Assembly: GCF_037975245.1 (NCBI RefSeq)
Contig: NC_092564.1
Span: 17,471,484 to 17,535,483, forward strand
DNA: 64,000 nucleotides
Source of the DNA: Apostichopus japonicus
Taxonomy: Eukaryota; Echinodermata; Holothuroidea; Aspidochirotida; Stichopodidae
Direction: 5' to 3'
Shown piece by piece: positions 1,630 through 63,565 of the stretch. The notes beneath the pieces were generated by a model that saw nothing but the letters and a program-made list of their open reading frames with translations, was not told the DNA's origin and ran no database searches. The stretch's first letter is position 1, and every line of letters begins with the position of its first letter. The position numbers were made by a program, and so were the translations under genes.

Positions 1630-2150
1630 CACACATGGGTGGGAATGGGGTGTACAATGGGATGTACAATGGGATGATGATGGGGACATATATACAGTAT
1701 GATGAACTGGGCAGCTACTTGGCCTTGTGAAGTAAGTTATTTGCTCAGCACACACGGGTGGGAATGGGGTGTACAGTGGGATGATGATGGGGACATGATA
1801 TGATGAACTGGGCAGCTACTTGTCCTTGTGAAGTATGTAATTTGCTCAGCACACACGGGTGGGAATGGGGGGTACAATGGGATGATAATGGGAACATATA
1901 TGATGAACTGGGCAGCTAATTGTCCTTGTAAAGTATGTAATTTGCTCAGCACACACGGGTGGGAATGGGGGGTACAATGGGATGATGATGGGAACATATA
2001 TGATGAACTGGGCAGCTACTTGTCCTTGTGAAGTATGTAATTTGCTCAGCACACACGGGTGGGAATGGGGTGTACAATGGGATGATGATGGGGACATATA
2101 TATGAATATGATGAATGGGGGGAGCTGCTACTTGTCCTTGTGAAGAATGT
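1630..2150. repeat. tandem array, ~100-bp unit, about 5 copies
   Basis: Units recur with the marker 'gggaatgggg' at 1641, 1760, 1861, 1961 and 2061, so the period is 119 then 100-101 bp. Each unit includes 'acacacgggtgggaatgggg', 'atgatgaactgggcagc' and 'tgtccttgtgaa' followed by GTAAGT (1732) or GTATGT (1833, 1933, 2033). Those words match 5' splice donors. No exon could be assigned to the sequence before them. Open frames across the array are by-products of the repeat. Confidence 0.9.
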
Positions 2151-2639
2151 TTTAAATTTGTGCATTTGTGTTGAGTCGTTTTATATATTTGTATCCCAAC
2201 TACAGGGGTGTGTATATCGGTATCGTTACCAGGATATTAAAAGTAGCGTCCGCGGGACGCAACGTTTTAAACATATTTGCCTCCGCTCAGAAAAACTTGC
2301 GTCCATACAGTCCTCCATGAAAACATGCATGCACTTTAAAACACTTCTACAGGAACGCATAGTACTTGATAATGACCCCTGACAAAACATTGGCTTGTGC
2401 GCAATGGAAGCCTACAGTAGGTCCATAATGTGCACGAAAATCAAATCAACTGATCATGATTAAAGCTGTAAATAGTATACCACAAAAAAATTACTGCCAA
2501 ATTCAGAAGCAGGAAATTTTGCCGTCGGTTCACAAAAATCATGAAAATATTTTATACAAAATAAAGATTGGAGCCTTCCAAACTGCTATGCAAACTTTGA
2601 ACACTAATTTATTGCCTGTATTATACCATAATTATACCT
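2151..2639. other. non-coding spacer
   Basis: Nothing recognisable between the two tandem arrays; short open frames here have no family resemblance. Confidence 0.4.
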
Positions 2640-3335
2640 GGGTTAGAGTCGTTGACAGAAAAAACAAAAATGTGAATCTTACTATTCAGTTGAGCTTTGA
2701 GGGCTTGGCTTTGTCTAAAGTGTGTGGACTTGCTTTGATGGTACATAAAAATCATCCTAATTAAATTCATGGTTGCCTGGAATATTCATGTATTTTTTCA
2801 CCATATATTTATTCATGCATTCAAGTCCTTGACAGAAAAAAATGTAATATGAATCTTACTATTTGGCTGAGCTTCAAGGGCTTGGCTTTGTCTACAGTGT
2901 GGACTTGCTTTGGTTGTACATAAAAATCATGCTAATTAAATTCATTATTGCATGGAATTTTCATGTCTTTTTTTCACCATATATTATTTATTCCTGTGTT
3001 GAAGTCATTGACAGAAAAAAATGAATGTGAATCTTACTATTCAGTTGAGCTTCAAGGACTTGGCTTTGTCTACAGTGTGAACTTGCTAATATGGTACATA
3101 AAAATCATGCTAATTTATTCATTGCTGCTTGGAATATTCATGTATATATTTATTCCTGTGTTAAAGTCATTGACAGCCAAAAAATGAATGTAAATCTCAC
3201 TATTCAGTTGAGCTTCAAGGACTTGGCTTCGTCTATAGTGTGGACTTGCTTTTGTGGTACATCAAAAAAATTTGCTAATTTATTCATGGTTTCATGGAAT
3301 ATTCATGTCTGTTTTCACCATATTATATTCTTCCT
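2640..3335. repeat. degenerate tandem array, ~165-178-bp unit, 4 copies, abutting a splice acceptor
   Basis: Marker 'gaatcttactattcagttg' or close variants appear at about 2674, 2851, 3029 and 3193. Units also share 'gacagaaaaaaatg', 'gtacataaaaatcatgctaa' and 'ttcaccatatatt'. The last copy runs into the pyrimidine tract and CAG acceptor of the Gli exon beginning at 3340, so the repeat supplies most of the 3' end of that intron. Confidence 0.8.
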
Positions 3336-3339
3336 GCAG

Positions 3340-22564
<19,225 letters not shown>

Positions 22565-28430: not shown

Positions 28431-28439
28431 GTGTATCTG

Positions 28440-28930
28440 TGTGTTACACCTCATATGAACATCTTGAAAGTACCCCTGGTTGAACTTTGGTGGGTCTGGG
28501 TGTATCTGTGTATGTTACACCTCATGTGAACATCTTGAAAGTACCCCTGGTTGAACTTTGGTGGGTCTGGGTGTATCTATGCATGTTACACCTCATGTGA
28601 ACATCTTGAAAGTAGCCCTGGTTGAACTTTGGTGGGTCTGGGTGTATCTGTGTATGTTACACCTCATGTGAACATCTTGAAAGTACCCCTGGTTGAACTT
28701 TGGTGGGTCTGGGTATATCTGTGTGTTTCACCTCATGTGAACATCTTGAAAGTACTCCTGGTTGAACTTTGGTGGGTCTGCGTGTATCTGTGTGTGTTAC
28801 ACCTCATGTGAACATCATGAAAGTACCCCTGGTTGAACTTTGGTGGGTCTGAGTGTATCTGTGTGTGTTACACCTCATGTGAACATCTTGAAAGTACCCA
28901 TGGTTGAACTTTGGTGTGTAAATTCTCCTG
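28440..28930. repeat. 70-bp tandem array, about 7 copies
   Basis: Unit: 'cctcatgtgaacatcttg', 'aaagtacccctggttgaac', 'tttggtgggtctgggtgtat', 'ctgtgtatgttaca'. Copies are 90% or more alike by eye. The array sits inside the dispersed family described at 20055, which continues to about 29530. Confidence 0.95.
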
Positions 28931-30596: not shown

Positions 30597-30604
30597 GCCC
30601 CAGA

Positions 30605-30846
30605 CATAGGCGTACGAGGCGGGGGGCAGGGGGGCAGACTGCCCCCCCATATTTCCAGAGGACAAGAAATTCGGGCAAAAGTCCTGAAAAATTCGGGCAG
30701 CCTAAGAGGAGAAAAAAAAATATATATATATATATTTTTTTCTCCTCTTAGGCTGCCCGAAAAAAAAATATATATATATATATTTTTTTCTCCTCTTAGG
30801 CTGCCCGAATTTTTCAGGACTTTTGCCCGAATTTCTTGTCCTCTGG

Positions 30847-30930
<84 letters not shown>

Positions 30931-30931
30931 C

Positions 30932-30977
<46 letters not shown>

Positions 30978-31171
30978 TTCCAGAGGACAAGAAATTCGGG
31001 CAAAAGTCCTGAAAAATTCGGGCAGCCTAAGAGGAGAAAAAAAAAATATATATATATATATATATTTTTCTCCTCTTACGCTGCCCGAATTTTTCAGGAC
31101 TTTTGCCCGAATTTCTTGTCCTCTGGAAATTTGGGGGGGGGGCAGTCTGCCCCCCGCCTCGTACGCCTATG
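30605..31171. repeat. multi-level palindrome around AT microsatellites
   Basis: The outer arms are cataggcgtacgaggcgggg and its complement. Inside, a segment running from 'ggacaagaaattcgggc' to 'cctaagaggagaaaa' occurs whole or in part five times: forward at about 30659 and 30983, inverted at about 30736, 30795 and 31067. TA runs separate the copies (30848-30977 is the longest). Open frames of Tyr-Ile repeats here are translations of the TA run. Confidence 0.9.
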
Positions 31172-35730: not shown

Positions 35731-36443
35731 TATGACATAAGAAAGGCTTTTAAGCGCAAGACAAGAACTAACTGTCCCATGGTTTACATCATTGGCATAG
35801 TGGGTTGTCACAAATACGTACAATAAACCGTGTTGTTTTTTTTCTGTACATATCATTAATATTTATCTGTGAACATAAAGTGTGTTATCAGATATCTCTG
35901 AAATAGTATGTCTAATTAGCTTTATACATGTACTAAGATATTACCATGTAAGTATATAGATACATGCTGATGAGTTCATAAACTTTGACCTCATTAATAT
36001 TTATGAATGTATCAGTTTTTATACAACAACATGATAATTTATACATTGCACCGTCCTTTATATGTTGCCGCATTAGTCAAAAGATAATCCTCTTCATGTT
36101 GGTGTGCACGACTAAACGATTGCGTTCTTTTTTTTTAACAAAATGAATCACGATACCTTGTTGCTTTGATTGACGCACCATGTTTGTTTGTACATAAATT
36201 GTCATTACCATATCACGTCGAGTCTGGGTTTTGAACTTTAATCCTGATAAGCATATACTTATCATAATATTATCTTCTTTGCCTGGTACGAAGTTCAAAG
36301 TCAGACCAGCATAAGTTATGTGATACTCTTTTTTCCCTGTGTAGAGTCTGGTCTGCGCGTGCTTATTAATTCACATAAACAGTTACGGTTGGAAACCCCC
36401 GATTATATACCTGCATTTCGCTCGGAACCGTCGTACAAGAAAC
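35731..36443. other. 5' flank of the fasciclin gene
   Basis: No promoter element can be singled out with confidence. The region directly before the ATG at 36444 is presumed 5' UTR. Confidence 0.4.
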
Positions 36444-36645
36444 ATGGAGTATCTCGGAATTCTACTTCTAGCGGTTACTTTGGGGATTGGAGAATCACTG
36501 GAACAACCTCAGTTGGAGGAGGAGTTCTCTGGACACGTCCACTCAACGTCCAAAACGGTTCTAGATGTCTTAAAGGAGAGGAATTTGACCGAAATGTCCT
36601 ACCTGGTGACAAAGGCGGATCTGAACAAAACCTTGGCAGGCAAAG
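36444..36645 (+). CDS. fasciclin gene exon 1 (signal peptide)
   Basis: ATG at 36444 is followed by a hydrophobic signal sequence, then the first helices of FAS1 domain 1. Donor GTATAG. A second, out-of-frame ORF over the same stretch is a shadow. Confidence 0.9.
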
Positions 36646-37079
36646 GTATAGACATGTAACCTATAAATAGCTACATAGATTATCATGTGGTAATTCATTG
36701 TGTTGCCTCCCGTAACATATACTGGGTATAACTGTATGGTTATATAGAACTCGTGTCGTCAGTTTATTGTCTGTTATACTCTGTTTGATTGTAGCTATAT
36801 CTGTATGTATACTATGAATAATTATTCACTTAACATGAAAGGCCTACACATGCTAGCATGAAAAACTATATATATGGTGTAATATGTGTTACTGTAGACA
36901 TTTTCTGATCAGTCTCTGAATACTGCTATACTCTGTCTGTTTCTTTGTCCGTCTGTCTGTGTGTCCGTATGTCTGTATGTTTGTTTGTCTGTCAGTTTAT
37001 GTGTCCGACTGTATATATATAATGATGATCAAAGTAATAAGTCAATTTATATGTAGGACCTACGTATGCAAGCATGGCA

Positions 37080-37147
<68 letters not shown>

Positions 37148-45604: not shown

Positions 45605-46356
45605 CAGGGATGCCAGAATTCTGGCAATAGCCGGAATTCCGGCTTTTTCCGATTTTGAAATATGATTCCGGCTCCACACGATCTCACAGTTGAAACAGGC
45701 ATGAGCTTTTTCAGTCAATTTCTAACTGTTATCCTAACACACTGTAGCATACGCAAATTGGAGCCTTTATCGCAATTTTGATCTCTGTATTTAGTATCAT
45801 TAGTAGTTTATATTTGTAGTAATTTAGTATCATTAGAGTAGGGACAAATATTAAAATTTGTGGCTGCCTTTGGAAGTGACTCGAAAACGGAGATAATTCC
45901 AGAAATTTCCTCTCGGACTAGGCCCTAGAGATGTGCCCGGAAAAGTTCATAAAGTTCATTTCCTGGCCTGGCAATTCAGAATGAGACTTCTGCGGTACTT
46001 AGGCATATTTCACCTTTACCGAAAGTACCATTTAAGGTTAAAGAATCGAACACATGACCATTATCCAGTTATATGTGTTTTAATCTTATGGTGTTGTTTC
46101 TCATTATATTTTTTATAGTATTTTGGGGAAGTGTGAATTTCTAAAATATGACATCTCAAAATATAGTTCAGATAAGAATAAATTCAGATGCAACATACAA
46201 AGCCTGGGAAGTTCCATTTCCGGTGATCTGGGAGGGATATTTTGACAAAGTATTCTTGCAACGCTACGCGCCAACCCAGAGTGGCGCTCCGCTTAGTGTT
46301 TGGGACGTCCAAGTCTTCACATCTTTCAGGCCCTAGGGGCAAACCCTGCCTCCCTG
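45605..46356. mobile_element. possible hAT-type element carrying the conserved core
   Basis: Starts CAGGGATGCC and ends GCCTCCCTG, imperfect inverted repeats, with AATATA on both outer sides (6 bp; an 8-bp match fails at two bases). Contains the conserved core at 46208-46300. Boundaries are inferred. Confidence 0.5.
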
Positions 46357-46561
46357 AATATATAATAGTTTTCACCCTTTCTCTGGAACAATTACGGCCT
46401 TAAAGGGATCAAATTGACATGTTAGGTTAACGAGGTAACATCAAAGTAATTTTTACAACCGAAAGTTTGGATTCCATGGTCGATGACCAAATAAAAAAAG
46501 AAAGAAAAAATAGAAGAATTTCAGAACGAAAACTTGATAAATTTCTATTCTTGTATGGTCG

Positions 46562-47576
46562 TTACCTTTGCTTCGATTTAGAATTCAAAATTTCATTTAG
46601 TTTCTTCTTTTCAATCTCAAATATTTGTTTTGCTCGTTGATATATCAAAATTTCTGGTAGTAACATCTTTTTTATTTCTGGATTGTTAATCAAATCTGTT
46701 TTCGCTTTTTTTCTTGTCTGTATTTTACTGAGTTGTGAATCCGAATTATCATACTGACCAACGTTGTAATCGAATTTATTGCAATATTTAAAGAAAGGTA
46801 ACTTATATGCGACCTGGAGCATTCTCAATGTAGTAGAAAAATCTTCCATCAAGCCAACCACAGAGAAATGTTTGTCGAGATTAGAAACAACAGACTTAAC
46901 AAAGCTACGATTTTGGCTTAAAACGTAGGCTTCTGATGCTAACGGTGAATAGTCAATTGCACAATTCCAACTTTCTGACCTGGTACAATCGATATCTGTG
47001 AAGAACTCGTTCCAGAGGATACTTTTAGTACTTAAAGCCCACTCCGTGATGGTATGTGTTCTACAGTCTGGTATACCTGGAATGGTCTGGTTGAGTTCGA
47101 TGCAATAATAATAGTTAGATACCATCCTGTCGTACGGTTCTCGTAAAATAACAAACGTTGAACATTTCCTATCGCCGATTATACCGTGTATCAGATCGCA
47201 GAATCCAAAGCTGTAGTCACCCATAAACAGAGATGTACTATTCAAGATGCGAAAGTCACCGTTGAGGATATCCTGGGTGACTTGAATCCTTCCTTCAGTA
47301 TGAAGCAAGAAAGGTTCGTCTCGAACAAGATTAGACGCCACCATATTCATACATTCCTTCATGGTTGTTCCGCCGCTTTTGGGAACGTGCATAAAATTGA
47401 TGAATGCATCCTTATATTGTGGCCGTTTCGACGAATACATGAAATAATTCGGTAGGTTATTACAACTGTTGGTGTGGTGAAAAACATGGCAATTTATGAG
47501 ACGGTTATCTGACGGTTTTGAAGTTTGATTTCTGTCCTGCGAGGCACTCGACATACGATGGTGCGGCACATGAGCT
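46562..47576 (-). CDS. sulfotransferase A exon 2 (catalytic domain)
   Basis: Single large exon after acceptor CTACACAG, starting one base into a codon to match exon 1. Contains both PAPS-binding motifs and ends in a Lys-rich tail. The GTG start suggested by the open frame alone is wrong because the frame continues into the spliced anchor exon. Confidence 0.93.
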
Positions 47577-48954
47577 CTGTGTAGGATAAATCAAAATATT
47601 GCTTAAAAATAAAATTTACCCGGAATAGTAATAACCTTTGACCTCCACCGAAGATTGTAGGACTTTTTACACGTCATAAGGCCAATCTATGACAATCATG
47701 GTTTGGAATAAATATTCTTGATGTATGGGATTTTTAAGATCTCCAAAGTAAATCTCATATGACCCTTGACCCTCACCAATCACAATAAAGATCTTGCTTC
47801 CTTATATACCAAGTATAATATTTGACAACATTCCCTTTCGCGACAGTGCTATTACGTATTTCAATCTTATTGTGGTGTTGACGTCTGGTGATATCAAAAT
47901 AAGGACCAGCAATGTATACTATATCATTTGCTATGATAGTGTGTGGATCGGGGTAGTTAGAGGAGTGTGAGGGGAGGGAGGTTAGTAGGAGTAAGGGCGA
48001 GAAAGAAAGAAAAAAGAAGCGAGAAGTTCTCTTGCATTAGTTATTATTAAAAAGTAGACAAACTGGTTCGTTATTCATTGATCTCACTCATGCACTGAAC
48101 TGAATCATAAATCGCTATATATGAGGAGAATCGGAAGTGCAGGAAATGGTCGGAAGTGAAGGGAAGAAATGGAACGGAACGAGTAGCATGTGGTTCCAAT
48201 ATATGGTATCGATCAACCATTCGTTGGCAAAATATAACTGTCTTTCAGAAAAAAAGAAAGGGAAATAAATAATGACAATTTTCAATCCCAAATTAAAATC
48301 GAGAGATCCGAGGCAAAATATTGGGAGAAATTTGGCAAAATCCAACTTAAACAAGATATATGGTTATAAAATGTAATTTAATATAAACACATATTTTTTA
48401 TATGTAAACGTCAGCTCTGCAATGGTATAGGTTATATATGTAAACGTGATATAGTTGCACGAAACGTTAGCGTTGTGGCATGCGTATTTTATATAATTAT
48501 TGACCGAAACGAAGCGAATTTCTCCACGTGAAAATATACGCGCGACCCATTTTTGATCGCAATTTACAAAGAAAAAAAAATCAAACTTTGCCGGGAGATA
48601 TCTCCCGGCAAAGTTTGGTAGTCTATATAGACTACCAATTTGGGATTTTGTCCCTCTTGTTGGTACATTTACCCACCCATTGGGGTGGGTGGGGTGGGGG
48701 ACTGGGGAGGGGAGGTATGCCGTATCCATTTAAAACGGTTGATGGAGAATGAGGCTCCTCATTCATTCATTCACTGTACAAATTGGTATACCTTACTCTA
48801 TCGTTAAGTTATACATGTACCACTAAGATATATACCACCGCTGGGGATTTATTTAGTTTACAACATCACAAGAAACTTCCACATGTAGGAACCTCTAATC
48901 AAAACAGATAATGTTTAATATGGTTATGATGAAACTGGGGCCTGATACCCCCTC

Positions 48955-49035
<81 letters not shown>

Positions 49036-49185
49036 TAGGGCCTATACTTACAGCTGTGGGTAATTGGTACCCAACGTCGTGGTGGAGCGACCGTCAGTTA
49101 AAGTCCGAAACAACAGGATTAAAGCAGCAGATACCACGACGACTAGTGCAAACGACATGCCAGAGTTCTTCGTAACTGGATTCAT
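46562..49185 (-). CDS. type II membrane sulfotransferase A (2-O-sulfotransferase-like), 2 exons
   Basis: Predicted Golgi enzyme that transfers sulfate from PAPS to a glycan. Exons on the minus strand: 49185-49052 (anchor) and 47576-46562 (catalytic); phases agree, 382 residues. A short cytoplasmic tail precedes a membrane segment (MSFALVVVVSAALILLF). The lumenal domain has the 5'-phosphosulfate loop HVPKSGGTTM (residues 108-117) and the 3'-phosphate site ILREPYDRMVSNYYY (from residue 188). The arrangement fits the Sulfotransfer_2 family (heparan sulfate 2-O- and uronyl 2-O-sulfotransferases). The substrate cannot be told from sequence; the enzyme is distant from vertebrate HS2ST1 and UST. A paralogue lies 6.4 kb upstream in the same orientation and shares a near-identical central tract. 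Confidence 0.9.
48582..48636. other. two adjacent perfect palindromes
   Basis: 36-bp palindrome with half-site CAAACTTTGCCGGGAGAT (48582-48617), directly followed by an 18-bp palindrome with half-site GTAGTCTAT (48618-48635). Lies in the intron of sulfotransferase A. Could form a cruciform on DNA or a hairpin in RNA. Confidence 0.95.
48958..49032. repeat. AT microsatellite
   Basis: Pure TA dinucleotide run directly next to the first exon of sulfotransferase A. Confidence 0.97.
49052..49185 (-). CDS. sulfotransferase A exon 1 (membrane anchor)
   Basis: On the minus strand ATG at 49185 gives MNPVTKNSGMSFALVVVVSA followed by ALILLFR, then a short stem ending TLGTNYPQ and donor GTAAGT. It is 134 nt and leaves with two codon bases, exactly what exon 2 needs. 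Confidence 0.85.
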
Positions 49186-49927
49186 CGTTCTTCTTTTCCG
49201 TCCCTCAACTCAAGTGTAGGCTACAATCGATGCCTAACAGCCTGCATGTACTTGCGGTAACGTTACATATCCTTATGTATCATTTATACTGTTGAAGTAC
49301 ACCATGCTGTTACCATGCAAATCATACACTCATGAGCCTACACACATACACACAGGTTGTATCCTACAGTCGTGGGTAAAGAGATTATCCAAGTCTTGAA
49401 AGAAGCTTGTACCACTCACTCGAAATCACTGCTGTTAATACTGTATAATGCATGTGCGGATGTATAGACTAATATTTGTAAACCGTTATATGCCTATTAT
49501 AATGTGGCAGGCAATACAGGACTACAACAACAGGTTATCACAAGAAAGGATTTAGATTGTCGTGACGATCCTGCAGAGCAGAAGCACGAGATTCTGGAAC
49601 GGGTTTCCTGTCTTGTGGTGACTGTTGGTTCTATCTTCACTGAAGCGTGAAGCTATACGGTGTGAGGCCTGTATATACAGCAATTCGGACGTCTTGGCAA
49701 ATGAGTCTTATTTTGCGTTTTGTTCATTAGCTATAGGGATACTGTTTACATTAAGATCCGAACAATCACCAGTATACGTTAGAAACAAGAACAGGTTGGT
49801 GGCACAACCTGAGTTCCGTTTTGCACAATGGTAGAGATGTTTGCCAAAGGCACAACGCCCTTTTACACTTTAGTGACGTCTAAAGAAACAATGTCTTTCA
49901 GTAGCAATCGTTGATCTTTCCTTCACT

Positions 49928-50573
49928 CAAGGGCGGCGGAACCGGGGGGCACAGGGGGCACGTGCCCCCCACTTTTCCTCAGGGTTAAAAATGTGCCCTT
50001 TTTCTACATAAAAATTGAGGTGTCTCAAGTTAGCAAGAGGCCAGGGAACCAGAATGAACACTCGGGAAGGGCCGTTTCCGGCCATCTGAGGGGTTTGTAA
50101 AACCAAAATTTTTATTGTACGCTCCGCGCCAACCGATGGTGGCGCTCCGCTCAGATAGTCGTGCATACAACTTTGCAAATCCTGGCTACGCCCCTGACTT
50201 TTAATGAATTTATGTGGGTCAAAACTCAAAGCTATTTCGAATGGAAACAATTTGTTAAGATATTAACAAGAAATAAACTCTAATTCGGAAGATTCCTACA
50301 TTAGCAACTAGCATGATTTCGCCTCATTTGTCTCAATAGAAAACTTGTTCCTTGTTTCCCAATTTGCACATTGGATATTGCAGTGCTAGTATGCATATTT
50401 TCCTTGGGGGGGGGGGGGGGCGTTGATGGTGTGACGTGTATACGCAAATAAGATAATACAATAAGAGTTATAAAGGGTACTAAATATCAGGCTACATCAG
50501 TCCAATCGAATTTCTGCAAAGTGCCCTTTGATGTCGGTGCCCCCCCAGATTAAAAGTGCTTCCGCCGCCCTTG
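49928..50573. mobile_element. non-autonomous hAT-type element, TIR CAAGGGCGGCGGAA
   Basis: Perfect 14-bp inverted repeats and perfect 8-bp target duplication CCTTCACT (49920-49927, 50574-50581). Same family as 32533-33137 with the core at 50066-50162. The minus-strand open frame 49927-50250 is non-functional sequence of this element. Confidence 0.94.
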
Positions 50574-50581
50574 CCTTCACT

Positions 50582-52968
50582 GCCTTGCTATCGTGAGATC
50601 TACCGAGGGAGGGTGGGGGGGGGGCGGTTCAATTGGACGGATACAGGAAAGGTCAACGTGGACTATTCGAGAGTTTGTAGGAAAGAAGTTGGTAGTAAAT
50701 GGTGTTTTGTCCGTCTGAAACACATATCTCACATGTCGGGGGTGGGTGGGTTGTATAGGTAAGAAGTTTGTAGGAAATGGTTTTGTCCGTCTTAAAACAC
50801 ATAAATCACACGTTGGGTTGGGGGAGGGGGGGCTGGGATGGGTTGGTGGGAGGTGGACTATATTTCTGTTTCTTCTTTTCTAACTAGGTATTCACTCCAG
50901 GGTATAGTTTATGCTTGGCCATTAAGTTGAATTCTTAGCATGATTGCATAAACCAAAAGTCAAATGACCAGTTTTCCTTTTCATATTCCTCATTGTCCGT
51001 CGCTGGAAATTTCAACTTTTTTCTTCAAAATTGCTGGAAGAACATATTCGAAAGTTTGAGTTAAAATGTCATAATTTGGATATAAAATGCCGAAATTTCG
51101 ATACGAACAACACACGTTTATAGATTAGGATATTAGTTGTATATAAGTCAGGAAGGAGCATACACATGCCCCCCCCCCCTGTTCCCCTCTTCCTATACGC
51201 CTATGCGAACGTACGTAACAGTTAACATGATTGCATTATTATACTGTATTTATGATAAGGTTCTGGTATGTTGAACTAATTTAAAAGTTTTCAAAGGGTT
51301 CGCTATGGCCTATATATATATATATTTGTTAGAACGACAGTTACCAGATGTTCAAATTGAATATGATAATATAATTCTGTTTTTGTGTGTATGACAAGTA
51401 ACCTTTTGTGCTACTGTGACAACTACTCCGCCTTGGGACAAACTGTCTTATTTTCCTTGTTTTACTGCAATTAAAAAAAAAACTAAATGTTATGTTTAAA
51501 TATACGCTATATGCCTGATGTTAACCAATCGTTTCCTATACACAGGACATTATTATTTAATGTGGTACTAAAAGGAACTTATCAAAGAACTTTGAAAGTA
51601 TGAATAATTTGCTACATATTGCAAAATGTGACAACAAGCCCCGGTCCCCACGTCCCGCCTTAGCTACTACTTGGTACTCGGAACCTTCAGCATTTAGATG
51701 TAGGCCTACTTGACACTCTGATAAATGTATTCAAATATATAATGCTGGTAAATTGTAATCACTATTTAGGCAACTTTATTGAAAATACAGCACTTAACAA
51801 CACAGTCGAAATCAGTGAGCTCGGAACACTACTCCGTCTGGTGCACACAAGTAGATGTAGTCAACTTACACTTCGGAGTAGAAGTATTGCTATAGAGCTG
51901 CCAGGAAGGACCGATTTTATATCCATCACAAGACAACAACCAACTTACTCGTCTTAGTAGGCCAAGCTCACGGTTATACGATATGAAAACTTATACGTGA
52001 AATATTCAACAATTTATATCATGTATCCATATATTAGTAATTCAAAAGGCTTTAGGCTATATAGGCCTTTATAGGCTCTACTTATAATACTGTTCATCAA
52101 ATATTTAGTTAATGTGAAAAGTTATTAGCGCAGTCTCCGGTCAGGGATTTCGAATCCTTTGCATCCGAAACCCAGATCCGATACCGAGCCAATTTCGAAA
52201 CCGAGGGCCCAGTCTGGTTTCGAGACCGACAATTATGTATCGTCATGTAAAGTAGAACACTGTCTTCACTAATTACGGCTGCAGATAAGCTGCTGTATGC
52301 CTGGGCAACACATATACGGCTTATAAGAAGTCTACCGAATTATAGAACAAGAAAGCTGGCTAACAACCAAATGATATATACCGTATATGAGTCATCCAAG
52401 ATTGACCCTGGGCACGAAACACCAACCTAAGTTACAGGTACACAGATACACACAGGCAACTAATCATATCTGTACTCACCAAACTAGGCCTGAGAGTCCA
52501 ACTGATATATTGGTTTGCTTTTCGTCAGTCTTATCTAGGTTCACTTCGGTAATGTCACTTCACACGATACCCAACAAAACGCACGCTCATGCATAACTTG
52601 ACATTTTTTAAGGGAGGGGAGGAGGGGAGGGGAGGGGAGGGGAGGGGATTGAGGCCATGAGTGATTGAGGGGGGGGGGATGGAATGAGATATGTAAAATA
52701 TATGTACGTTAGTAACACGTTACCAACATATCGATCATATAACATTGCGAAAACAAAGTAATGTGTTCTTTAAGCGACATAACTCTCATAACTGGAAAAT
52801 CATTTTCAAGAAAAAAGAAATGTCCATCTTGTAAGTTTCTAAAATAAAGCATACATTTATTTACTTTCTTACAAATGTTTGGTATGAATGGCATCCACGA
52901 GTGGAATGGCTAGCTTAGAACCTGCAAACTCGATAAGATGTTGATTCATGCCTTTAAATATACTAACT
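50582..52968. other. intergenic DNA between the two sulfotransferase genes
   Basis: No gene seen. G-rich runs near 52613-52650 (GGGGA repeats, prone to quadruplex). A sequence 'cctatacgcctatg' near 51192 resembles the right end of the 30605-33695 element without a partner. On the minus strand AATAAA (plus-strand TTTATT at 52856-52861) is about 110 nt beyond the stop of sulfotransferase B and is a likely poly(A) signal. Confidence 0.55.
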
Positions 52969-53947
52969 CTATAAACTTTCAAGTTCTTTCTTTTGAATTT
53001 CAAATATTTCTTTAGCTCGATTGTACATCAATATTTCCGGATATAATAATTCTCGAACGGCAGGGTGTGCCATTAGCTGATTCTTTGCAATAGATTTGAG
53101 AAGTTTCTTATTCATCGTCTTTTTGTATGTTCCAGCATTATAATCTAACGTTTGACAGGTGTCGAAAAATGGCAGGCCGTAGGCTTGCTGCAACATTTTT
53201 AGTGACGTTTCCATATCTTCCGTTAGACCAACCACAGAGAAATGTTTATCGAGACCAGCAACAAGAGCCTCAACGTAAGTGGTGTTTTGACTGAGAAGAT
53301 AAGACTCTTCCAATGTTCTGTAGTTCATTTTACATTCCCAATTCACATTTTTGGTACAATCGATATCTGTGAAGATTTCGTTCCAGAGGATACTTTTAGT
53401 CCTTAACGCCCACTCCGTGATGGTATGTGTTCTACAGTCTGGTATACCTGGAATTGTCTGGTTGAGTTCGATGCAATAATAATAGTTAGATACCATCCTG
53501 TCGTACGGTTCTCGTAAAATAACAAACGTTGAACATTTCTTATCGCCGATGATACCGTGTATCAGATCGCAGAATCCAAAGCTGTAGTCACCCATAAACA
53601 GAGATGTACTATTCAAGATACGAAAGTCACCGTTGAGGATATCCTGGGTGACTTGAATCCTGCCTTCAGTGTGAAGCAAGAAAGGTTCGTCTCGAACAAG
53701 ATTAGACGCCACCATATTCATACATTCCTTCATGGTTGTACCGCCGCTTTTGGGAACGTGCATAAAATTGATAACAGTACTCTTGAATTGTGGCCGTTTC
53801 GAGGAATACATAAAATAATTTGGTAGGTTGTTACAACTGTTCGAACGGTGCAGGACATGGCAATCCAATGCTATGTCATCTTGATAAGATGTCAAGTGAG
53901 GATGACCATCCCTGCCCTGTAGCATTCTATGAACTGACGAACTGGCT
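52969..53947 (-). CDS. sulfotransferase B exon 2 (catalytic domain)
   Basis: Acceptor TTTTCACAG on the minus strand; begins one base into a codon (A-SSSVHRMLQGRDG). The open frame extends past the acceptor to 54036, but the true 5' border is at 53947 by splice site and phase. Confidence 0.92.
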
Positions 53948-54393
53948 CTGTGAAAATAAAGATAGAAATAACATGTGTTTTGAGATGTTTGCACGACTGG
54001 TGCACATTTAGACCCATATATAAGAGCGCACGGCATTAAGGCCCATAGCTAGACTGGAGCAAGGGCCCGGGACCGTGACCACCACATCCATGCCGACTAA
54101 TGTGACATCCTCCCCCTAACCCCTCTCCACCCATTTGCCAAAAGTGTTCAACACGTGATCCGCAATTAAGATGTATAACCTACATTATATTTTGATAAAG
54201 CAATGAGTGAGTGTACTCTACAGAGCTATTAATAAAAGACAATAAATGTTTTTGTTTCTTACCTCTGTTGCAAGTTTATTTTAGTTGTTGTATACTGGTT
54301 GACCAGTAACATCACTAATAAAAATGAAATAATAGAAACTTGTCCAGTGATCCACAACAACCCATGCGTAGTCAAACTATTAAAAACCGCCAT
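52969..54393 (-). CDS. type II membrane sulfotransferase B, paralogue of A, 2 exons
   Basis: Minus-strand exons 54393-54263 (anchor) and 53947-52969 (catalytic), phases matched, 369 residues. Anchor: MAVFNSLTTHGLLWITGQVS, then IISFLLVMLLVNQY. Lumenal domain: HVPKSGGTTM and ILREPYDRMVSNYYY, as in A. From SCNNLPNYFMYSSKRP to SILWNE the two proteins are almost identical; the stem and the C-terminal third are clearly diverged (for example WECKMNYRTLEES against WNCAIDYSPLASEA). Same family and presumed Golgi role as A, possibly with a different acceptor because the divergent C-terminal third would carry acceptor contacts (inference). A second possible first exon lies upstream at 55561-55685. Confidence 0.9.
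54263..54393 (-). CDS. sulfotransferase B exon 1 (membrane anchor)
   Basis: ATG at 54393 (minus), 131 nt, one transmembrane segment and a short stem ending TTTKINLQQ; donor GTAAG at 54262. Leaves with two codon bases, compatible with exon 2. An in-frame upstream ATG in the longer frame is less likely because the A and 55561-55685 anchors also start shortly before the hydrophobic stretch. Confidence 0.83.
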
Positions 54394-54954
54394 TTTTTGT
54401 CTCGATTTTCCCAATGTAAAATGGAATCCAACCCAATATTTAATCGTTTCTTCAATAACCATGATGATAAATGGAGTTTGCAAGACAAACGGGTCTGGTT
54501 TCCTTAGTATAGAACCGGGTCAGTGAATTTCTTTATAATCAATGTAGAATTATTCACAGACGTTGTGGTCACCCTTTTACTCGTGACGTCTGTTTTACCA
54601 TGATGACTGTTTGTTGTACCTTTCACTGGCGTGACTAAATACACATTCATAATCTATCACTGGAAATATAGTTAACCACCATATAGTCTTTCTCTGTTAG
54701 ATGTAACTCTATCTCGCTCTCTCTCTCTATTAGCATTCATATATATGTTGTCTTTGGTATTGAATACTCTACACAGCTGCTCGAGTTCTTTACTTAGATT
54801 CATACACCTTCTCTAAGATGATTTGCGTGGGTCTGTTGACACCGACGTATCCACAACCCACTTCGCAAATTATCCATGAGTAATGATCTTATTTGTGAAG
54901 TAGATATATCGACGATATTTTTTCATATTGAATGTCTAATATGTTGAATGTATG

Positions 54955-55269
54955 CAGGGACGTGCTCAGGAATATTTGAGTGCCGGGCAGATTGTGCGGT
55001 AGTGTGAGCCACACCCTGGGAGAGGGATCTCATGGGTGGGGTACCCCCTCCCCACTGGACACATTTTGCACATGAAGTATGCTTAGGTGGTGCTATGTTT
55101 CCTATTCTGTGCCATGTATTCACCCATATTTTGATAACATTGGTAACATTTGTTAACATATCATCAAAAAAGTGCCGGGCGGAAATGGTTAAAATACTGT
55201 TTGTGCTGTGCGGCATTCAGAACTGCTCGGCGCAGCCGCCCGGTGCCGCCCAGTGTGAGCACATCCATG
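54955..55269. mobile_element. small TIR element (MITE)
   Basis: Ends CAGGGACGTGCTCA and TGAGCACATCCATG (inverted, 2 mismatches), flanked by TGTATG on both sides (54949-54954, 55270-55275). 315 bp. A CAGGG end is common among hAT elements; an 8-bp duplication is not intact. Confidence 0.65.
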
Positions 55270-55560
55270 TGTATGTATAGGTCAATTATGCTGGAGTAGA
55301 CAGGGAAGGTCTACTTCCCAATTTCTTTGAATGAAATATGAGAGAGAATGTATAGCAGGTGATTTGTTGGGCAGGGACGGGGTCGGGAGGGGTGGCTGGC
55401 TGATAGTCGCCAAAGAAGAAGGATAAACAAGAGTAACATATTGGAAGTACCTTACCACAACCTTATTATGTTATATACAGACCATCGCGTCGTATATAAG
55501 ATAAATACAAGACATGTGATCACATACTAATATAAAATAAACGTAAAAAAGATTACTTAC

Positions 55561-55685
55561 ATTTGTTGTACAAATACCTCGTTAATTGGACGTTGGTTGG
55601 TAAATAAAACGCCTATTGCAAACAGAATAATCACAAATATTTCGCCGACGACCCACCTGGTTGCACCTGTGCGGTTCTCGGCCAT
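55561..55685 (-). CDS. additional sulfotransferase-type first exon (membrane anchor), unpaired
   Basis: On the minus strand ATG at 55685 gives MAENRTGATRWVVGEIFVII, LFAIGVLFTNQRP and INEVFVQQ, then donor GTAAGTAA. Length (125 nt), a single hydrophobic segment and the two-base exit phase match the anchor exons of genes A and B. Either an alternative first exon of gene B with its own promoter and anchor, or the remnant of a third gene whose catalytic exon is gone. Splicing to 53947 would keep frame. Confidence 0.65.
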
Positions 55686-57723
55686 TTCCAATTAAGCGAG
55701 TCAACATTTACGTAAATAGTTGCCCGATGTTCACTGTTCAAATGGCACGTTCGAAGAGAAAGCGAGAGAGAGTGAGGGATACTGAGAGAAGCTAATGGAA
55801 GGTTATGAAATAGGTGTATACACATACAACCCCGTGTTATCTTATAAACGTTAGAAAGGGTTTCGTTTATATCCGCTTAATTATCTTCCACACAGACAGA
55901 TGGACCATCGCCTCTCTGCGATAAGGTATACTTCCTGTGTGCCATTCATCCTGATAGTCTGAGCCGAATAAGAGAATTAGAATAGTTTTTACATCCGCCT
56001 GAAAGGTTTGAAGATTGTCGAGAAATAGACGTAGTGTCTTTCATTGGACTGTAAATGTTGGCTGGGAAGGGGGGGGGGGGAAGACTGATTTAGGTCGCAT
56101 GGACCTCTTTTGAAGGGTAAGAGGCAGATGATAAATTTATAAAGTGGGAGCTAAGGAAGGGAGGTCCTGGGGTCGTTGATCCCGACTCGCATGAAGGGAC
56201 ATGTGGTCCCCCCAACTTCCGAAAAAGCTAATTTTAGACGTCGATGATGCATTTTATGCAAGTATATTTATGACACAAAGTAGATATATCAGTGTAGGTA
56301 TAAATTAAGACTGTGATAATAAATGCTGATAAAATAGAGAGGAAATCCCCCGACTGAACCCTTTCTTCCCCAGACTGACGAAGGAGGTGGGCCATGCCAC
56401 CCACATCCCACCCCAAACCCCCACCACCCCACCCCACTACACCACACGTTGGCATAATTTCAGTCATCATCATTCCTTTTGATGGTTGAATGTTGTAGAG
56501 GATGAAATAAACTATGGTTTAACAATCAGGAGGTTTAAAGGTGATTTAAGGCCTTTTTAGAAATTCCTGGTTGGAACAGGAAGATTTGACAAGGAGAGCT
56601 GGCTGATAGGTTGGGTAGTACTATGCTAAATGTCACCTCTTCTAGCTTGAAATCTAAATCAGTGGTCATTGTGGTTAACTTTGCATGTGCCGAGATAGTC
56701 CATAAGCGATAACATATCAGTTACAGAAGCATACGTAGGCCTAGGTGAATCCATTAAGGCTTTGCAATACCAAGGGTCAATGTTGTTACGACATATGCTC
56801 ATGACCAAGGATCTCCCTTTGGTTGCAAATTCCATGTCACCGAACTTTTGATGACCCACAATACCCATTAAACTTCTTTTTTGTTCAATTAGAGTGATAT
56901 TCGGCTAAGATAAGAAAATTACACAACAATCAGGACATGGGCACATGTCCGTTTTTGGCTTTAATTGTTGGTAAAGATACAATCTTGGTGTTACGTAATA
57001 GAATAGGCAATTATTTCTGCAGTATTTGATATGACAGCTATAATATGTGCAAAGAATAGAGGCTTCGTTCACAATTAACCAGTATAATGTGTGGTTCTAT
57101 AGATATATAAGCATAACTTAACTGAACCCGTTGTTGCAAGTGCATTACACCAAACATTAATGTTGCGTCAAGGAAGGGCAAGCTCTTTTATCTTTCTGTT
57201 CTGAGTCCCTCAATTAAAGAGGGAAGGAGTGGGGGGGGGGGTTCACCCCTCACACCCCTAGACCTGCGTCTGACCACGGAGGAGTGGTCAAATTCTTCCA
57301 CGGGTGAACTTAAACATTCCTAGACCGAGAGTAAGTTCCCCGACAGACGAATGGCGATACAAGGTTGGGTCCTTACCCCACTCCCCATCCTTTGTGCGCG
57401 GCACTGTTCTGGGACCGCCATTAAAAATTCCCATGCAATGGACGATAGTTTTCCTCAGCATCTGACCACTTTCTCAAATAATATAACAGGTTCAGACATC
57501 TTTGTCGTCACTGCAGTGCAGCTATTAATGGTAAACGAAGTTGTTTCGAAACCAAACCCGGTCCCCAATTCGCAAACCAGAAATACCAAGTCCACAGAAG
57601 ACTCCGCTCAACAACAGTGTTCAGCAGCAATTTAGGTCAAAAGAAACTGGTACCTGTCGAGGTTTTAAACGTTGCGGACTTGCGGATCGAACACTCTAAA
57701 AGCAGGTGGCTGCTGCGGAACTA
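55686..57723. other. intergenic DNA between divergent sulfotransferase B and KTI12
   Basis: No gene supported. GA and C/G-rich runs at 55745-55790, 56068-56078 and 56395-56440. A 94-residue open frame at 57351-57635 has no family resemblance. Confidence 0.5.
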
Positions 57724-58379
57724 TGGAACGCCATGTTAACATTTATTCAATTATTAGAGATATCTTCAATTAATTTCAGATATCTCAAATTAAATTAAAT
57801 ATATCTCTAGTTATTGAAGATATCTTCAATTCAATTTGAGATATCAGAAATTGAATTTTCGATATCTTGAAGTTTATTTAAGATATCTCTAACTGTTTTT
57901 CAGATATCAAGAAATAAATTAAAGATATCATAAAAGGAAACATTATTTAAGATATCTCGAATTGAATTAGAGATATCCAAAATTGAATGCGAGATATCAA
58001 GAATTCGATTTAGAGATATCCAAAATTGAATTCGAGATTATCAAGAAAAGAATTCGAGATATCCAAACTTGAATTCAAGATATCAAGAATTCGAATTAGA
58101 GATATCCAAAATTGAATTAGAGATATCAATAATTCGAATTAGAGATATCTGGAATACAATTAGAGATATCTGGAATACAATTAGAGATATCCAAAATTCA
58201 ATTAGAGATATCAATAATTCAAATTAGAGATATCCAAAATCGAATTCTTGATATCTCGAATTCAATTTCTGATATCTCAAATATGTTTCAATTAGAGATA
58301 TCTGAAAATGAATTAGAGATATCTGGGAATGAATTAGAGACATCTGTAATTATTGAATAAATGTTAAAATGGCGTTCCA
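57724..58379. mobile_element. foldback element with TA duplication and 25 GATATC sites, next to KTI12
   Basis: TA at 57722-57723 and 58380-58381 flank inverted ends TGGAACGCCAT...ATGGCGTTCCA; the repeat continues through 'aacatttattcaa' for about 30 bp. The inside is a degenerate ~20-22-bp array 'attagagatatccaaaattg' with 25 GATATC words by my count, in both orientations. No coding capacity. It ends 86 bp before the KTI12 start codon, so it forms part of the 5' UTR or core promoter region. Confidence 0.92.
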
Positions 58380-58465
58380 TACGGAACCGCTTCTAGCTCT
58401 GAATGAGACATTTGTCATTGCCGAATGCTAGTTGAAATATATCGTTGCTACAATATTTCCATACA

Positions 58466-58613
58466 ATGCCGCTAGTAGTGTTATGCGGATTCCCGTCTTC
58501 AGGGAAAACTAAAAGAACAAATGAAATAAAGAAACAACTTGAAAAGAATGACAAGAAGGTCATCGTAGTTAGTGAGCACAATTTTGGAATCGATAAGAAT
58601 TTGGTATACGCTG
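58466..58613 (+). CDS. KTI12: KTI12 exon 1 (Walker A)
   Basis: ATG in a conserved start context (MPLVV, as in other KTI12 proteins). GFPSSGKT is the P-loop. Donor GTGAGT at 58614. Confidence 0.96.
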
Positions 58614-61600
58614 GTGAGTGAAAAACTATTTCAACAGTCATGTGCCTAGTAAGTTATCCTTAGGACTAGTTTTGCGACACAGTCAATGCGCAGAAGATAG
58701 TGCACGATACAGTATAGTGCACAATAGACTCGTGCTAGTTTGGATATGTACTTGTTATTGTTGCACTGTACACATTTGGCCGCGTCCTAATTTTACGATG
58801 ACTGTCCAAATGGAAAATAAGGAATATGTCTCGGGCTGGTCTAAGAATCAGTTTTCATCTATGCAAGCAGGGATGAAATATCTTAACATGTTAAAAATAT
58901 TGTAGGAAACATTTCATCACATGGTTTAATGCAAAATGGGACTATTGCTATCTTGCTGTTTAGAAAGTTTAGACCAACTGATGTTTTTCACCTTCAAAAG
59001 TTTGATGTCTGAGCGTAAGAAGTTTGTTAATTTTCATGTTTCTTTTTTCTTCAGACTCAAAGAAAGAAGTGAGCTTGCGTGGTGATTTAAGATCTGGTGT
59101 CTTAAGGTAGGAACAGAAATTCTGCCAGAAAATCCAAGCTTGCCCAATATAATACTGTAAACAACTTCTAAACATGACGTAAATTCCCTTATTATTATCT
59201 TATTGGAAAGTAGATTTGAAATGATAATTATTTCAGTGGTCACATGAAACAAAAGAAGTGGGAGAGGTTGATATTGAGGTGATGTGGAGGGGAGTTGAAT
59301 TCCAATGTTGAAATGAAGGGAATTTGTTTTTATGCTCAGGTAGACATCAACAACATCATGATCAATTATTTGAAGGAAATTTATATGAAAAACACTGACA
59401 AGTAGACACTTATATTTAAAAGGACGAAAATGATATATTATCATTGCATCATTCTCTGTAGCAAACGCAAGAAATATTCTCATGTTAAATGTGGCCAGAA
59501 ATTACTAATATATTTGCCAGATGTTCTCTGTTTTTTCTTTAGTGTTCTGTGGTGAGTATTGTTATGACAAAAATAAACTACAATTCGAAAGACAAGAAGA
59601 CAATAAGATCAGTTTTAAACATTTTCACCATTTACAGGGAAATATCTAAAGAGACTGTGGTCATCCTTGATTCCCTTAATTATATAAAAGGTGAGTTCTT
59701 TGCCTTTTCTTGGAATCTGATACATTATTTCCTGTAGCCCATAATAACTTCATGGTTATTCATGATGTTGTGCAAAAATGTACATGGAGGTTTGATTTCA
59801 AAAGAGGTTATTGACTATGTACAGTCTCTGCAACACATGTTTGATACGAGCTGTTCTTCATCATTGCGTCACTGAAACAGTTACACACAGTGAATTACAG
59901 TTATAAAAGCTTCATTAAGAAAAAAATACTTCTCAGAAAAAAATAATGTGTGTACCAAAGAAACAGCAACACAGTACAGTATTAAGTAAATGAACAGAAA
60001 TAATGTGATATGGTCACCTGGTGCAATCCTATTCTTCATTTTTCTTGCAAATCAACTATGTTTTAAATAATTTTTTGTGTGTTTGACAGTATTTAGGGAA
60101 TTGAGTGGGTTGATTTATATATGTACTGAGGGGCAGATGAGGTTGGGAAGGGTGGAGGGTGTGTGTGCCTGTTTGGGGGGGGGGGGGTGTCAATGTATTA
60201 GTTACTGTTGCTGGAATGACAAGTTCAAGTTTTTAACCTTTCAGTAATTTTTAATATGTTTGACAGGTTTCAGATATGAGCTTTTCTGTGGTATCAAGTC
60301 AGCGCAAACGCCCCATTGTGTTGTAAGTATTACCAGTGTCTCCTCACCGTCAAAATTTGCTATTTTTGTACTTGAAAAAAAAAATGTATTAATGTTTTCC
60401 ACATTAAATATCACTCATCTATGAGCATTGAAGTTGTGTTGCAAGTTTGGTCGGTAAAATGTTTACCACACTTACGTACCGAGTGTTTCTCAAGATCAGA
60501 ATTCAGTCGTTTTTATGAGCTAATGACACTGTTCAAGATTATATTCAATAAGTTCATTTTCATTAGTCAGTTAAAAAATGATTCTGCGGGATTTTTACAG
60601 AAAAGAAAAAGTGGCTACACTGTATGTATTAGCAGCTCAGTCAATGGAAAAGTTTACCCATTAGTCAGCATTTCTTGTAAAGAATGACTTTAACCACAAA
60701 TTTCCTGTTTCTTATGTTGTAGACCAGTGGTTCTCAAAGTGGTCCCTGCCACCCCTGGGGGGCGTTTGAAAGAGTCAGGGGGGTGTTACAGGGTACACGG
60801 GTAGTAGGGGGCGTTGGCACTGATTTGGGGGTACCTGGCAATTACGACACATCACTGCAGCAATTTAGGGCACAATAACGCATCCAGGGGGTCTTGGAAC
60901 AAACAAAAAGAATTTTGTGACCCAGAATTATCCAAAAATGGTATTAGAAATTCAATAACTCCACCCCAAGGTCCAATTTCTTTCGCGTTTGGATTATATT
61001 GTAGCACAAACATCCCTTGTAACTTATAAGCGCATAGCGCCACCATTTTAACCTGTCATTTGTGGTATTCCCTGAGTTGGTCAATGATTGCAAAGTCAAG
61101 GGGAGGGGGTAGGGGGAGGGGGGCATTGGGACAGTTCAAGATGGTCGAAGGGGCGGTCGTCTAAAAATGTTTGAGAACCACTGTTGTAGACCAATACGAA
61201 CCACTTGTATCAGGTCAAGTTGTTTTTCTATACCACTTTTAATTTCTGAGAGATATGACCTTTTGAACAGGTCAGGTCCATAAGTTAACGTGGTAAGGTT
61301 TTCAGATGCAACTCAAACTCAAGGATTAATGATCTTGAATGTCATCCAAGAATTTAATATGAATATATTATAATTAATAATTAAGTGATCATTATTAATA
61401 ATTAAGTGATCATGCCAGAGAGTTAACATATTTTAATGTGAATATCTTGAAAAACTGAATAGCTAGACACATTATTACATCAGCACTCAAATGTTTCTCG
61501 TTTCTGGAGCTGTGACATATCAAGACTAAAATTCTGCTTTTAATAATGTCATCTTGTTTCAAATTTCTATAAATTATGAAACCCTGCCTGGGCTAGCTAA

Positions 61601-63565
61601 TGTACTACATTGATGTAGTACAGTCAATGCGTAAAAGCTAAGACTTAGTGTTTAGAACCCTAGAGACTTCTGCCATCCCAAATTGCATTCCTACTTGTTC
61701 CTTGAACACTTTTATGTTAATATCTCAAGAAATTGCCCCTACCAAGAGTTTTAGGACAGTGAATTCAAACAAGACATAGATTGATCTTACTGTACCTCAA
61801 ATGATACACCTTTGATCTGTTAATGATCTAATCCAAATTTTGAGGGAGATAGAGACAAGAAAGAAAGACAAAATTAACCCCTCCCCCTCCCACCTCCCAT
61901 TCCCCCTCTCACTCCCCTCCCCAATTTTTAACCAGTCTGATGAATTTGTAATGATAAAGACCTTTGTGTAAACTTTGCTTCAGGCCCCCCTAATACTGGT
62001 TTATAATTCTCCACCTCATTCTTGTTCTTATTTACAGGTCCACTGTGATGTGAGCCATGATGATGCACGAGAATGGAATGAAGGAAGACCAGAGGGTGAA
62101 CGATACAACCAAGATGTGTAAGATCATTACCATTCAGGGAATCATTAAGTGTCAAATTTTGTGCAGCACTTTTTTGAAGGTTTTGAAGTTTGCCTTTTAC
62201 ATAAAAACTTTATCGTGTCCCCTGTCTACAAACTGTATCTGCATCTTTGCACTTGTACAGCAACTTCCTAGTATTTTGTGATGCGATGCGACTTGAATCA
62301 AATTATTCCCTGGGATTTGTAATCTCTAGTTGTCATGGCACTAGCTTTTTTTGACATAGAAAGAATCATTTCACTGGAAAGAAAGTCACTGTATCATTTT
62401 CCTTCTAAAGGTTATGTTCATATCTAGTATCCAAATTCCATTTAAGTGAAGAAATTTTGCTTAACAGATCTCCTTTGCAATACCTGCAGTGCATTTTCTT
62501 AGGGAATTTTCTCTTTGCTGGAAATATTTGTTAAGAAAGAAAATGAAACATGATTCAGATGCAAGAGTATACTGTTTCCCTTTTTCTTTTTCTCTGTCAC
62601 TTGTATCTCTTTATGATTGCATTATTTTATTCCAAATACGGTGACAGGTTTGATGCGTTAGTAATGAGGTTCGAACCTCCTGTGGGCAAGAATCGTTGGG
62701 ACAAGCCTTTATTCTCGCTGAAGAAAGACGAAAATGTCGACTTTGAGGCTATCAGTTCAGCGCTGTTCAATACCAAACCTCCTGCTAGAAATATGTCCAC
62801 TGTATCGGTAAGTACACGCATGCTGTGTATAAAAGACGGGTGGGTGGCTTTATGTCCACTGTAAAAAGAAAGATGAAAATGTCGACTTTGATGCTCTCAG
62901 TTCAGCGCTGTTCAATACCAAACCTCCTGCTAGAAATATGTCCACTGTATCGGTAAGTACAGTACACACATGGTGTGTATTAAAGTCAGGGGTGGGTGGC
63001 CATATGTCCATTGTAAAAAGAAAGATGAAAATGTCAACTTTGATGCTATCAGTTCAGCGCTGTTCAATACCAAACCTCCTGCTAGAAATATGTCCACTGT
63101 ATCGGTAAGTACAGTACACACATGGTGTGTATTAAAGTCAGGGGTGGGTGGCCATATGTCCATTGTAAAAAGAAAGATGAAAATGTCAACTTTGATGCTA
63201 TCAGTTCAGCGCTGTTCAATACCAAACCTCCTGCTAGAAATATGTCCACTGTATCGGTGAGTACAGTACACGCATGGTGTGTATTAAAGACAGGGGTCAG
63301 GGGTGGGTGGCCATATGTCCACTGTAAAAAGAAAGATGAAAATGTCATCTTTGATGCTCTCAGTTCAGCGCTGTTCAATACCAAACCTGCTGCTAGAAAT
63401 ATGTCCACTGTTTCAGTTAGTACACGTATGGTGTGTATGTAAGACAAAAGAATAGCACATTACCATCAAAATGATTATCAAAAATTTCCTCTTTGTTTTC
63501 AGCAACCTCTCTCTTCAACTAACTTTCTACATGAGCTTGATAAGAAGACCCAACAGATAGTTACG
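58466..63565 (+). CDS. KTI12: KTI12, Elongator-associated P-loop ATPase (7 exons visible, 3'-partial)
   Basis: KTI12 is a tRNA-dependent ATPase that regulates Elongator and hence wobble-uridine modification of tRNA. Exons 58466-58613, 59055-59106, 59638-59690, 60267-60322, 62038-62117, 62648-62807, 63503-63565; phases agree and give 204 residues before the window ends. Motifs: MPLVVLCGFPSSGKT (Walker A, residues 8-15), VSEHNFGIDKN, VVILDSLNYIKGFRYELFC (residues 74-92), DAREWNEGRPEGERYNQDV, RFEPPVGKNRWDKPLF and SSTNFLHELDKKTQQIV. All match KTI12 in order. The C-terminal tRNA-binding part (roughly the last 100-150 residues) lies beyond the window. The gene has many introns and two are modified by insertions: a hAT element in intron 4 and a donor-spanning tandem array after exon 6. 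It has none of the long linker seen in the human protein. Confidence 0.96.
59055..59106 (+). CDS. KTI12: KTI12 exon 2
   Basis: Acceptor CTTCAG, donor GTAGG. Encodes DSKKEVSLRGDLRSGVLR, aligning with human 'EKALRGALRASVER'. Short (52 nt); placed by phase and similarity. Confidence 0.88.
59638..59690 (+). CDS. KTI12: KTI12 exon 3 (ILDSLNYIKG)
   Basis: Acceptor TTTACAG, donor GTGAGT. Encodes EISKETVVILDSLNYIKG, the Walker-B-type strand and the most conserved KTI12 signature. Confidence 0.96.
60267..60322 (+). CDS. KTI12: KTI12 exon 4
   Basis: Acceptor TTTGACAG, donor GTAAGT. Encodes FRYELFCGIKSAQTPHCV, matching human 'FRYELYCLARAARTPLCLV'. Confidence 0.95.
60725..61183. mobile_element. hAT MITE in KTI12 intron 4
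   Basis: Terminal inverted repeats CAGTGGTTCTCAAA and TTTGAGAACCACTG, the classic hAT/Charlie-type end. Perfect 8-bp target duplication TTGTAGAC at 60717-60724 and 61184-61191. 459 bp, G-rich, no transposase. Confidence 0.96.
61192..62037. other. rest of KTI12 intron 4
   Basis: No exon or further element seen. Short direct repeats 'attaataattaagtgatcat' lie near 61373-61412. Confidence 0.5.
62038..62117 (+). CDS. KTI12: KTI12 exon 5
   Basis: Acceptor TTTACAG, donor GTAAGA. Encodes VHCDVSHDDAREWNEGRPEG followed by ERYNQDV, a segment present in yeast and invertebrate KTI12. Confidence 0.95.
62648..62807 (+). CDS. KTI12: KTI12 exon 6
   Basis: Acceptor GTGACAG, donor GTAAGT at 62808. Encodes VFDALVMRFEPPVGKNRWDK, PLFSLKKDENVDFEAISSAL and FNTKPPARNMSTVS, as in human 'ALTLRFEAPDSRNRWDRPLF'. 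The last 87 nt found the tandem array. Confidence 0.96.
62721..63422. repeat. tandem array of KTI12 exon-6 end plus splice donor, 5 units, 146-159-bp period
   Basis: Marker 'aagaaagaygaaaatgtc' at 62721 (true exon), 62867, 63018, 63170 and 63329. Each unit has the same ~87 nt of exon end, a donor (GTAAGT three times, GTGAGT, GTTAGT) and about 60 nt of intron ('ggggtgggtggccatatgtc'). All copies keep the reading frame DENVxFDAxSSALFNTKP(P/A)ARNMSTVS without stops. Plus- and minus-strand open frames in 62821-63447 are produced by these copies. Confidence 0.96.
63503..63565 (+). CDS. KTI12: KTI12 exon 7
   Basis: Acceptor TTTTCAG, donor GTAGCT. Encodes QPLSSTNFLHELDKKTQQIV and T, matching human 'QPLASGSFLHQLDQVTSQV'. 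The donor is weak, but the frame runs into a stop just after it, so splicing here is likely. Confidence 0.9.

Follow-up and report, generated by a model that had tools for sequence, protein, structure and literature searches.

The 64,000-nucleotide stretch of the Apostichopus japonicus genome analysed here (the window) contains a GLI zinc-finger gene and a KTI12-like gene. The GLI model, in which seven exons are spliced to a single open frame of 1059 aa, is backed by tblastn with the Asterias and Strongylocentrotus GLI proteins, and further GLI exons were located by tblastn near 3345-3446 (the first coding one recognised by homology, also placed at 3340-3445), 6051-6254 and 7784-7861. Two frames in the window match Pfam PF08433 (KTI12). 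TRF on the window gave 37 rows, which merged to 12 arrays with a period of 30-300 bp, and three arrays straddle the ends of coding exons, two of them in the GLI gene and one in the KTI12-like gene. In these three (arrays 1-3), the first copy is the 3' end of a coding exon with its GT donor, and the remaining copies are intronic. The features are as follows:

15236..15385, + strand: coding exon of the GLI zinc-finger gene, the last 65 nt and donor of which found array 1 (open spliced frame, Pfam zf-C2H2_15, tblastn)
15321..16876, + strand: array 1, 22 units of 67-71 bp, unit 1 being the exon end with gtaagt and the last unit degenerate (unit listing)
18372..18662, + strand: GLI exon encoding the last zinc finger, its final 24 nt and donor founding array 2 (open spliced frame, Pfam zf-C2H2, tblastn)
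18639..19008, + strand: array 2, about five units of ~84-88 bp (donor scan; TRF 84 bp x4.3)
18727..18746, + strand: 20-nt segment of array 2 between AG and GT, a potential micro-exon (sequence reading)
18810..18830, + strand: 21-nt segment of array 2 between AG and GT, a potential micro-exon (sequence reading)
18898..18918, + strand: 21-nt segment of array 2 between AG and GT, a potential micro-exon (sequence reading)
62648..62807, + strand: coding exon of the KTI12-like gene, the last 87 nt and donor of which found array 3 (Pfam KTI12 at 62640-62808, splice-site scan)
62721..63424, + strand: array 3, five units starting at 62721, 62866, 63018, 63170 and 63329, spaced 145-159 bp (unit listing; TRF 152 bp x4.6)

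Array 1 was called by TRF at 15321-16845 (71 bp x21.6), and its exon/donor border lies between 15385 and the following gtaagt. The exon matches the Asterias and Strongylocentrotus GLI proteins at 88% (tblastn). When one 71-bp intronic unit was compared with the 671.6-Mb genome, with the best candidates scored only, 21 of 21 matches fell inside array 1; the GLI exon is therefore the likely founder of this array. In array 2, the border lies between 18662 and gtatgt, and the unit comprises the exon's final 24 nt, gtatgt and some intron, with donors at 18663, 18747, 18831 and 18919 (84, 84 and 88 bp apart) and a last unit that has no donor. Similarly, the border of array 3 lies between 62807 and gtaagt, its unit being the last 87 nt of the exon, the donor and some intron; the acceptor of this KTI12-like exon is weak and was picked by position. 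An earlier, sequence-only reading of the window had described three arrays of different periods, in two genes, each with its founder at an exon/donor border, and this description is confirmed by TRF, the splice borders, the open frame, tblastn and Pfam. The same reading let the pattern begin at 1630, which takes in the array at 1656-2106 (TRF 100 bp x4.4), the units of which have GTAAGT or GTATGT. No coding exon was found there by tblastn with GLI proteins, and the first recognised GLI coding exon lies downstream, so this array was rejected as a fourth exon-border case and the upstream start of the span is not confirmed.

Among the best 120 of 2931 matches to the GLI protein, one from a fish (Coryphaenoides, 47% identity) ranks first of the named ones; below it come eight from echinoderms (52-58%), then three from hemichordates (52-55%) and one from Branchiostoma (51%). 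An amphioxus origin of the DNA, which the mirage literature had suggested, was rejected on this order and on the sulfotransferase match described below. For the GLI region at 13304-22561, no protein named A. japonicus GLI is among these best 120 of 2931. The annotated A. japonicus GLI gene may be fragmented, and the arrays could be the cause.

Elsewhere in the window, two Sulfotransfer_2 frames on the minus strand (46565-47590 and 52972-54048) have a long near-identical stretch and are divergent toward the C-terminus, a pattern that looks as if local gene conversion had occurred between the neighbours. One sulfotransferase frame of the window aligns over 91% of its length with an Apostichopus japonicus protein, at 99% identity. 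At 30711-31080, two identical 48-bp units lie beside an (AT)n run, in a stretch with similar frames on both strands, which is perhaps a palindromic mobile element.

Outside the window, five more border duplications were found, four at donors (L022, L043, L047 and L006) and one at an acceptor (L027). Among the myosin loci, a donor of L043 is duplicated at +220 bp, L022 has a 53-bp array starting about 7 nt ahead of the donor, L047 has the exon end with its donor in five copies, and L027 has an acceptor-side array of three 124-bp units, the last of which is the real exon. In the random locus L006, a single duplication covers an exon end with its donor; the two copies are 231 bp apart, 100% identical and have 1 nt in common at the join. 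The border copy is a real coding exon in GLI (tblastn, open frame) and in the KTI12 and myosin cases (Pfam); the duplicated L006 exon itself has no Pfam match, and its neighbouring exon matches XPG_I. The recurrence of border duplication claimed for the window thus extends beyond it, to 4/63 donors and 1/60 acceptors. The Pfam families in the annotated random loci are XPG_I, AAA and MOZ_SAS, with an alpha/beta hydrolase below the cut-off, and we take the genes to be ERCC5/XPG, PSMC5, KAT5 and ABHD12. The XPG-type gene also has a 279-bp x2.4 repeat (L006:9037-9701) within a long open frame, which is a protein-level tandem repeat. Large 60-bp arrays of 39 and 32 units occur in two random stretches (L010:2717-4974 and L015:1-1900, respectively), so minisatellites are common in this genome.

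Border duplications were compared with background over 360 kb of DNA, comprising the window and ~296 kb elsewhere (30 myosin loci and 20 random loci). A position was scored as duplicated when its surrounding 30-mer passed a complexity filter and was matched, at 80% identity or more, by a copy lying 20-1000 nt away. Homology identified 80 exons, the ends of which served as sites; 35 of these exons lie in myosin loci, 30 in four random loci and 15 in the window, and four lacked a donor and seven an acceptor, the end being unclear or unsought, which gave 76 donors and 73 acceptors. Exons were annotated in 4 of the 20 random loci (L006, L007, L009 and L019), where the exon scan gave recognisable genes. 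The 35 of 70 myosin matches lying outside the loci examined were left out, as were the GLI exon near 7784-7861, the middle exons of KTI12 and the first exon of the Fasciclin gene in the window, and kinesin exons were excluded from the counts. At each homology end, the nearby splice site with the highest score was taken, in some cases by eye, with general donor and acceptor weights. Two backgrounds were used, namely 2000 circular shifts of the sites against the duplication map, and intron positions within 1 kb of the sites under seven settings.

The tandemly duplicated share of filtered positions is 13.1% over the 360 kb (random loci 15.2%, myosin loci 11.4%, window 8.8%). Duplication was found at 7/76 donors (myosin 3/35, random 1/28, window 3/13), at 1/73 acceptors (myosin 1/32, random 0/28, window 0/13) and at 1/60 exon midpoints; the sites are not fully independent, because neighbouring exons can share one array. 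For all sites together, the circular shifts gave no donor excess (7 observed vs 6.76 expected, P(>=7)=0.544) and an acceptor deficit (1 observed vs 6.65 expected, P(<=1)=0.002). Without the window, the values were 4/63 donors vs 5.73 expected and 1/60 acceptors vs 5.58 expected (P=0.011). In the window alone, which was chosen for its arrays, they were 3/13 donors vs 1.11 expected (P=0.087) and 0 acceptors vs 1.13 expected (P=0.313). The sequence-only reading had judged the three border arrays unlikely to arise by chance, a judgement that the random shifts of the window donors do not bear out.

The comparison with intron positions within 1 kb gave the same picture. Under the main setting, donors stood at 7 vs 6.5 expected overall and at 4 vs 3.9 outside the window; across the seven settings, they stood at 3-4/63 vs 3.5-4.2 without the window and at 6-7/76 vs 5.7-7.0 with it. 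Acceptors stood at 1/60 vs 5.7-6.6 and 1/73 vs 7.9-9.3, respectively (P<=0.0022 each). Taking both backgrounds together, the single duplicated acceptor compares with an expectation of 6.7-8.9 (P<=0.002). The direct contrast of donors with acceptors (Fisher) gave P=0.063 with the window and 0.37 without it, and the donor rate outside the window (4/63) has a 95% interval of 1.8-15.5%. In this small sample, donor borders seem to be duplicated about as often as introns, and acceptors and exon interiors less often.

The simplest account of these counts is general duplication followed by the loss of alleles with a damaged message. Tandem duplications ranging from tens of bases to a few hundred would arise widely in the non-coding DNA of A. 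japonicus and then expand and contract as minisatellites, probably growing by unequal exchange. Where a duplication covers the 3' border of an exon, the upstream copy would supply the entire exon together with its donor, and the additional copies would become part of the intron; such a duplication would be tolerated because the upstream copy still gives a complete exon and donor, with splicing presumably continuing at the donor of the first copy. A duplication over an acceptor or within an exon would usually disturb the message and be lost, and selection would then be the reason for the deficit at acceptors and in exons. Some classic tests of duplicated donors favoured the intron-proximal donor, which would predict harm and speaks against this tolerance. 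On the whole, we give a probability of roughly 65% to the reading that minisatellites of this type (the mirage type, after those of amphioxus) are survivors of general duplication and selection and not products of a donor-linked process. A tentative proposal, to which we give less than even odds, is that throughout the A. japonicus genome tandem duplication finds donor borders transparent and acceptors shielded.

The donor/acceptor asymmetry could also be a sampling effect, with both kinds of border struck by chance. The donor counts fit chance and the Fisher contrasts are compatible with this explanation, but acceptors lie under background in both groupings of the circular shifts and in every intron setting, and we consider it unlikely. 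Alternatively, duplication could be promoted at exon/donor borders, by R-loops, U1 binding or transcription-replication conflict, and then partly removed by selection. The window donors, at 3/13 vs 1.11 expected, and the four further donor cases elsewhere would agree with such a process, and a donor-linked mutational excess trimmed by selection could be compatible with equal donor and intron rates. However, donors are duplicated at the intron rate (7 vs 6.5-6.8 expected, n=76), those outside the window stand at 4 vs 3.9 and 5.73 expected, and the arrays were the reason for picking the window, which makes this explanation quite improbable. The sequence-only reading had offered a mechanism acting at the exon/donor border as a possible cause and proposed a genome-wide count of arrays at donors against background and acceptors, taking a lack of donor excess as refutation. 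In the small version of this count run here, on 76 donors only, no donor excess over background was found, which leaves duplication by a donor-linked process unsupported.

The extra donors could, finally, be retained as useful, whether as splicing-factor decoys, alternative ends or micro-exons. The donor hexamer is less well kept in the extra copies than the rest of the unit in array 1 (0.913 vs 0.952) and array 2 (0.750 vs 0.766), about equally kept in array 3 (0.917 vs 0.914), and better kept in L047 (1.000 vs 0.932) and L022 (0.991 vs 0.895), the L022 units being cut at the motif. Decoy selection, which the sequence-only reading had also offered, was rejected on this inconsistent retention. 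Read-through to the second donor of array 2 is open and in frame and would add 28 residues, and the array has three AG-(20/21 nt)-GT segments, so exon or intron birth from such arrays is possible, array 2 being an example; in the other six of the seven donor cases, use of the second donor is computed to lead to a stop, and usefulness as the general reason for retention is very improbable.

If donor borders are indeed transparent and acceptors shielded, and if the outside-window rate of 4/63 applies genome-wide, thousands of donors would have spare copies of an exon end and its donor. These would form a standing reservoir from which micro-exons and shifted introns could come, and genome sequence alone could show how strongly the first donor is preferred. 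An asymmetry that holds genome-wide would also be a natural experiment on the choice of splicing between identical donors, in which sites like array 2 of GLI might show early exon or intron birth.

Amphioxus 'mirage' minisatellites have been described in the globins BflGb6 and BflGb9, with Adh3 as a cited case (PMC3087553), and a lancelet PGBD5 mirage repeat has been described with troponin C as a cited case (PMC3902484). Regular splicing and length instability are reported for amphioxus mirages, and the intron-gain idea is the same as that of the sequence-only reading. As in those mirages, the units of arrays 1-3 and of L022, L043, L047, L006 and L027 span an exon-intron boundary with its splice signal; unlike them, the present arrays are in an echinoderm, are described from one assembly and were compared with background. 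The amphioxus type is thus extended to an echinoderm, and the small sample shows no sign of donor-linked mutation. Cases of intron gain by tandem duplication have been reviewed (PMC4974935). In the Rogers model of intron gain, as in the arrays here, tandem duplication provides a coding gene with multiple copies of its splice signals. However, that model has an exonic AGGT segment duplicated to give a new intron, whereas the present units straddle an existing donor with their copies in an existing intron, and arrays 1-3 show no exonic AGGT duplication making an intron inside an exon. The human interferon-induced 6-16 gene has a minisatellite, the unit of which includes the donor at an exon end, with several copies used as donors. 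The arrays here share with it a repeat unit with an exon-end donor, and the use of multiple copies is a feature of 6-16. In the limited paper collection searched, no report of such repeats in A. japonicus was found. This kind of structure and the intron-gain proposal are already in print; what is new are the sea cucumber cases, the background comparison and the asymmetry.
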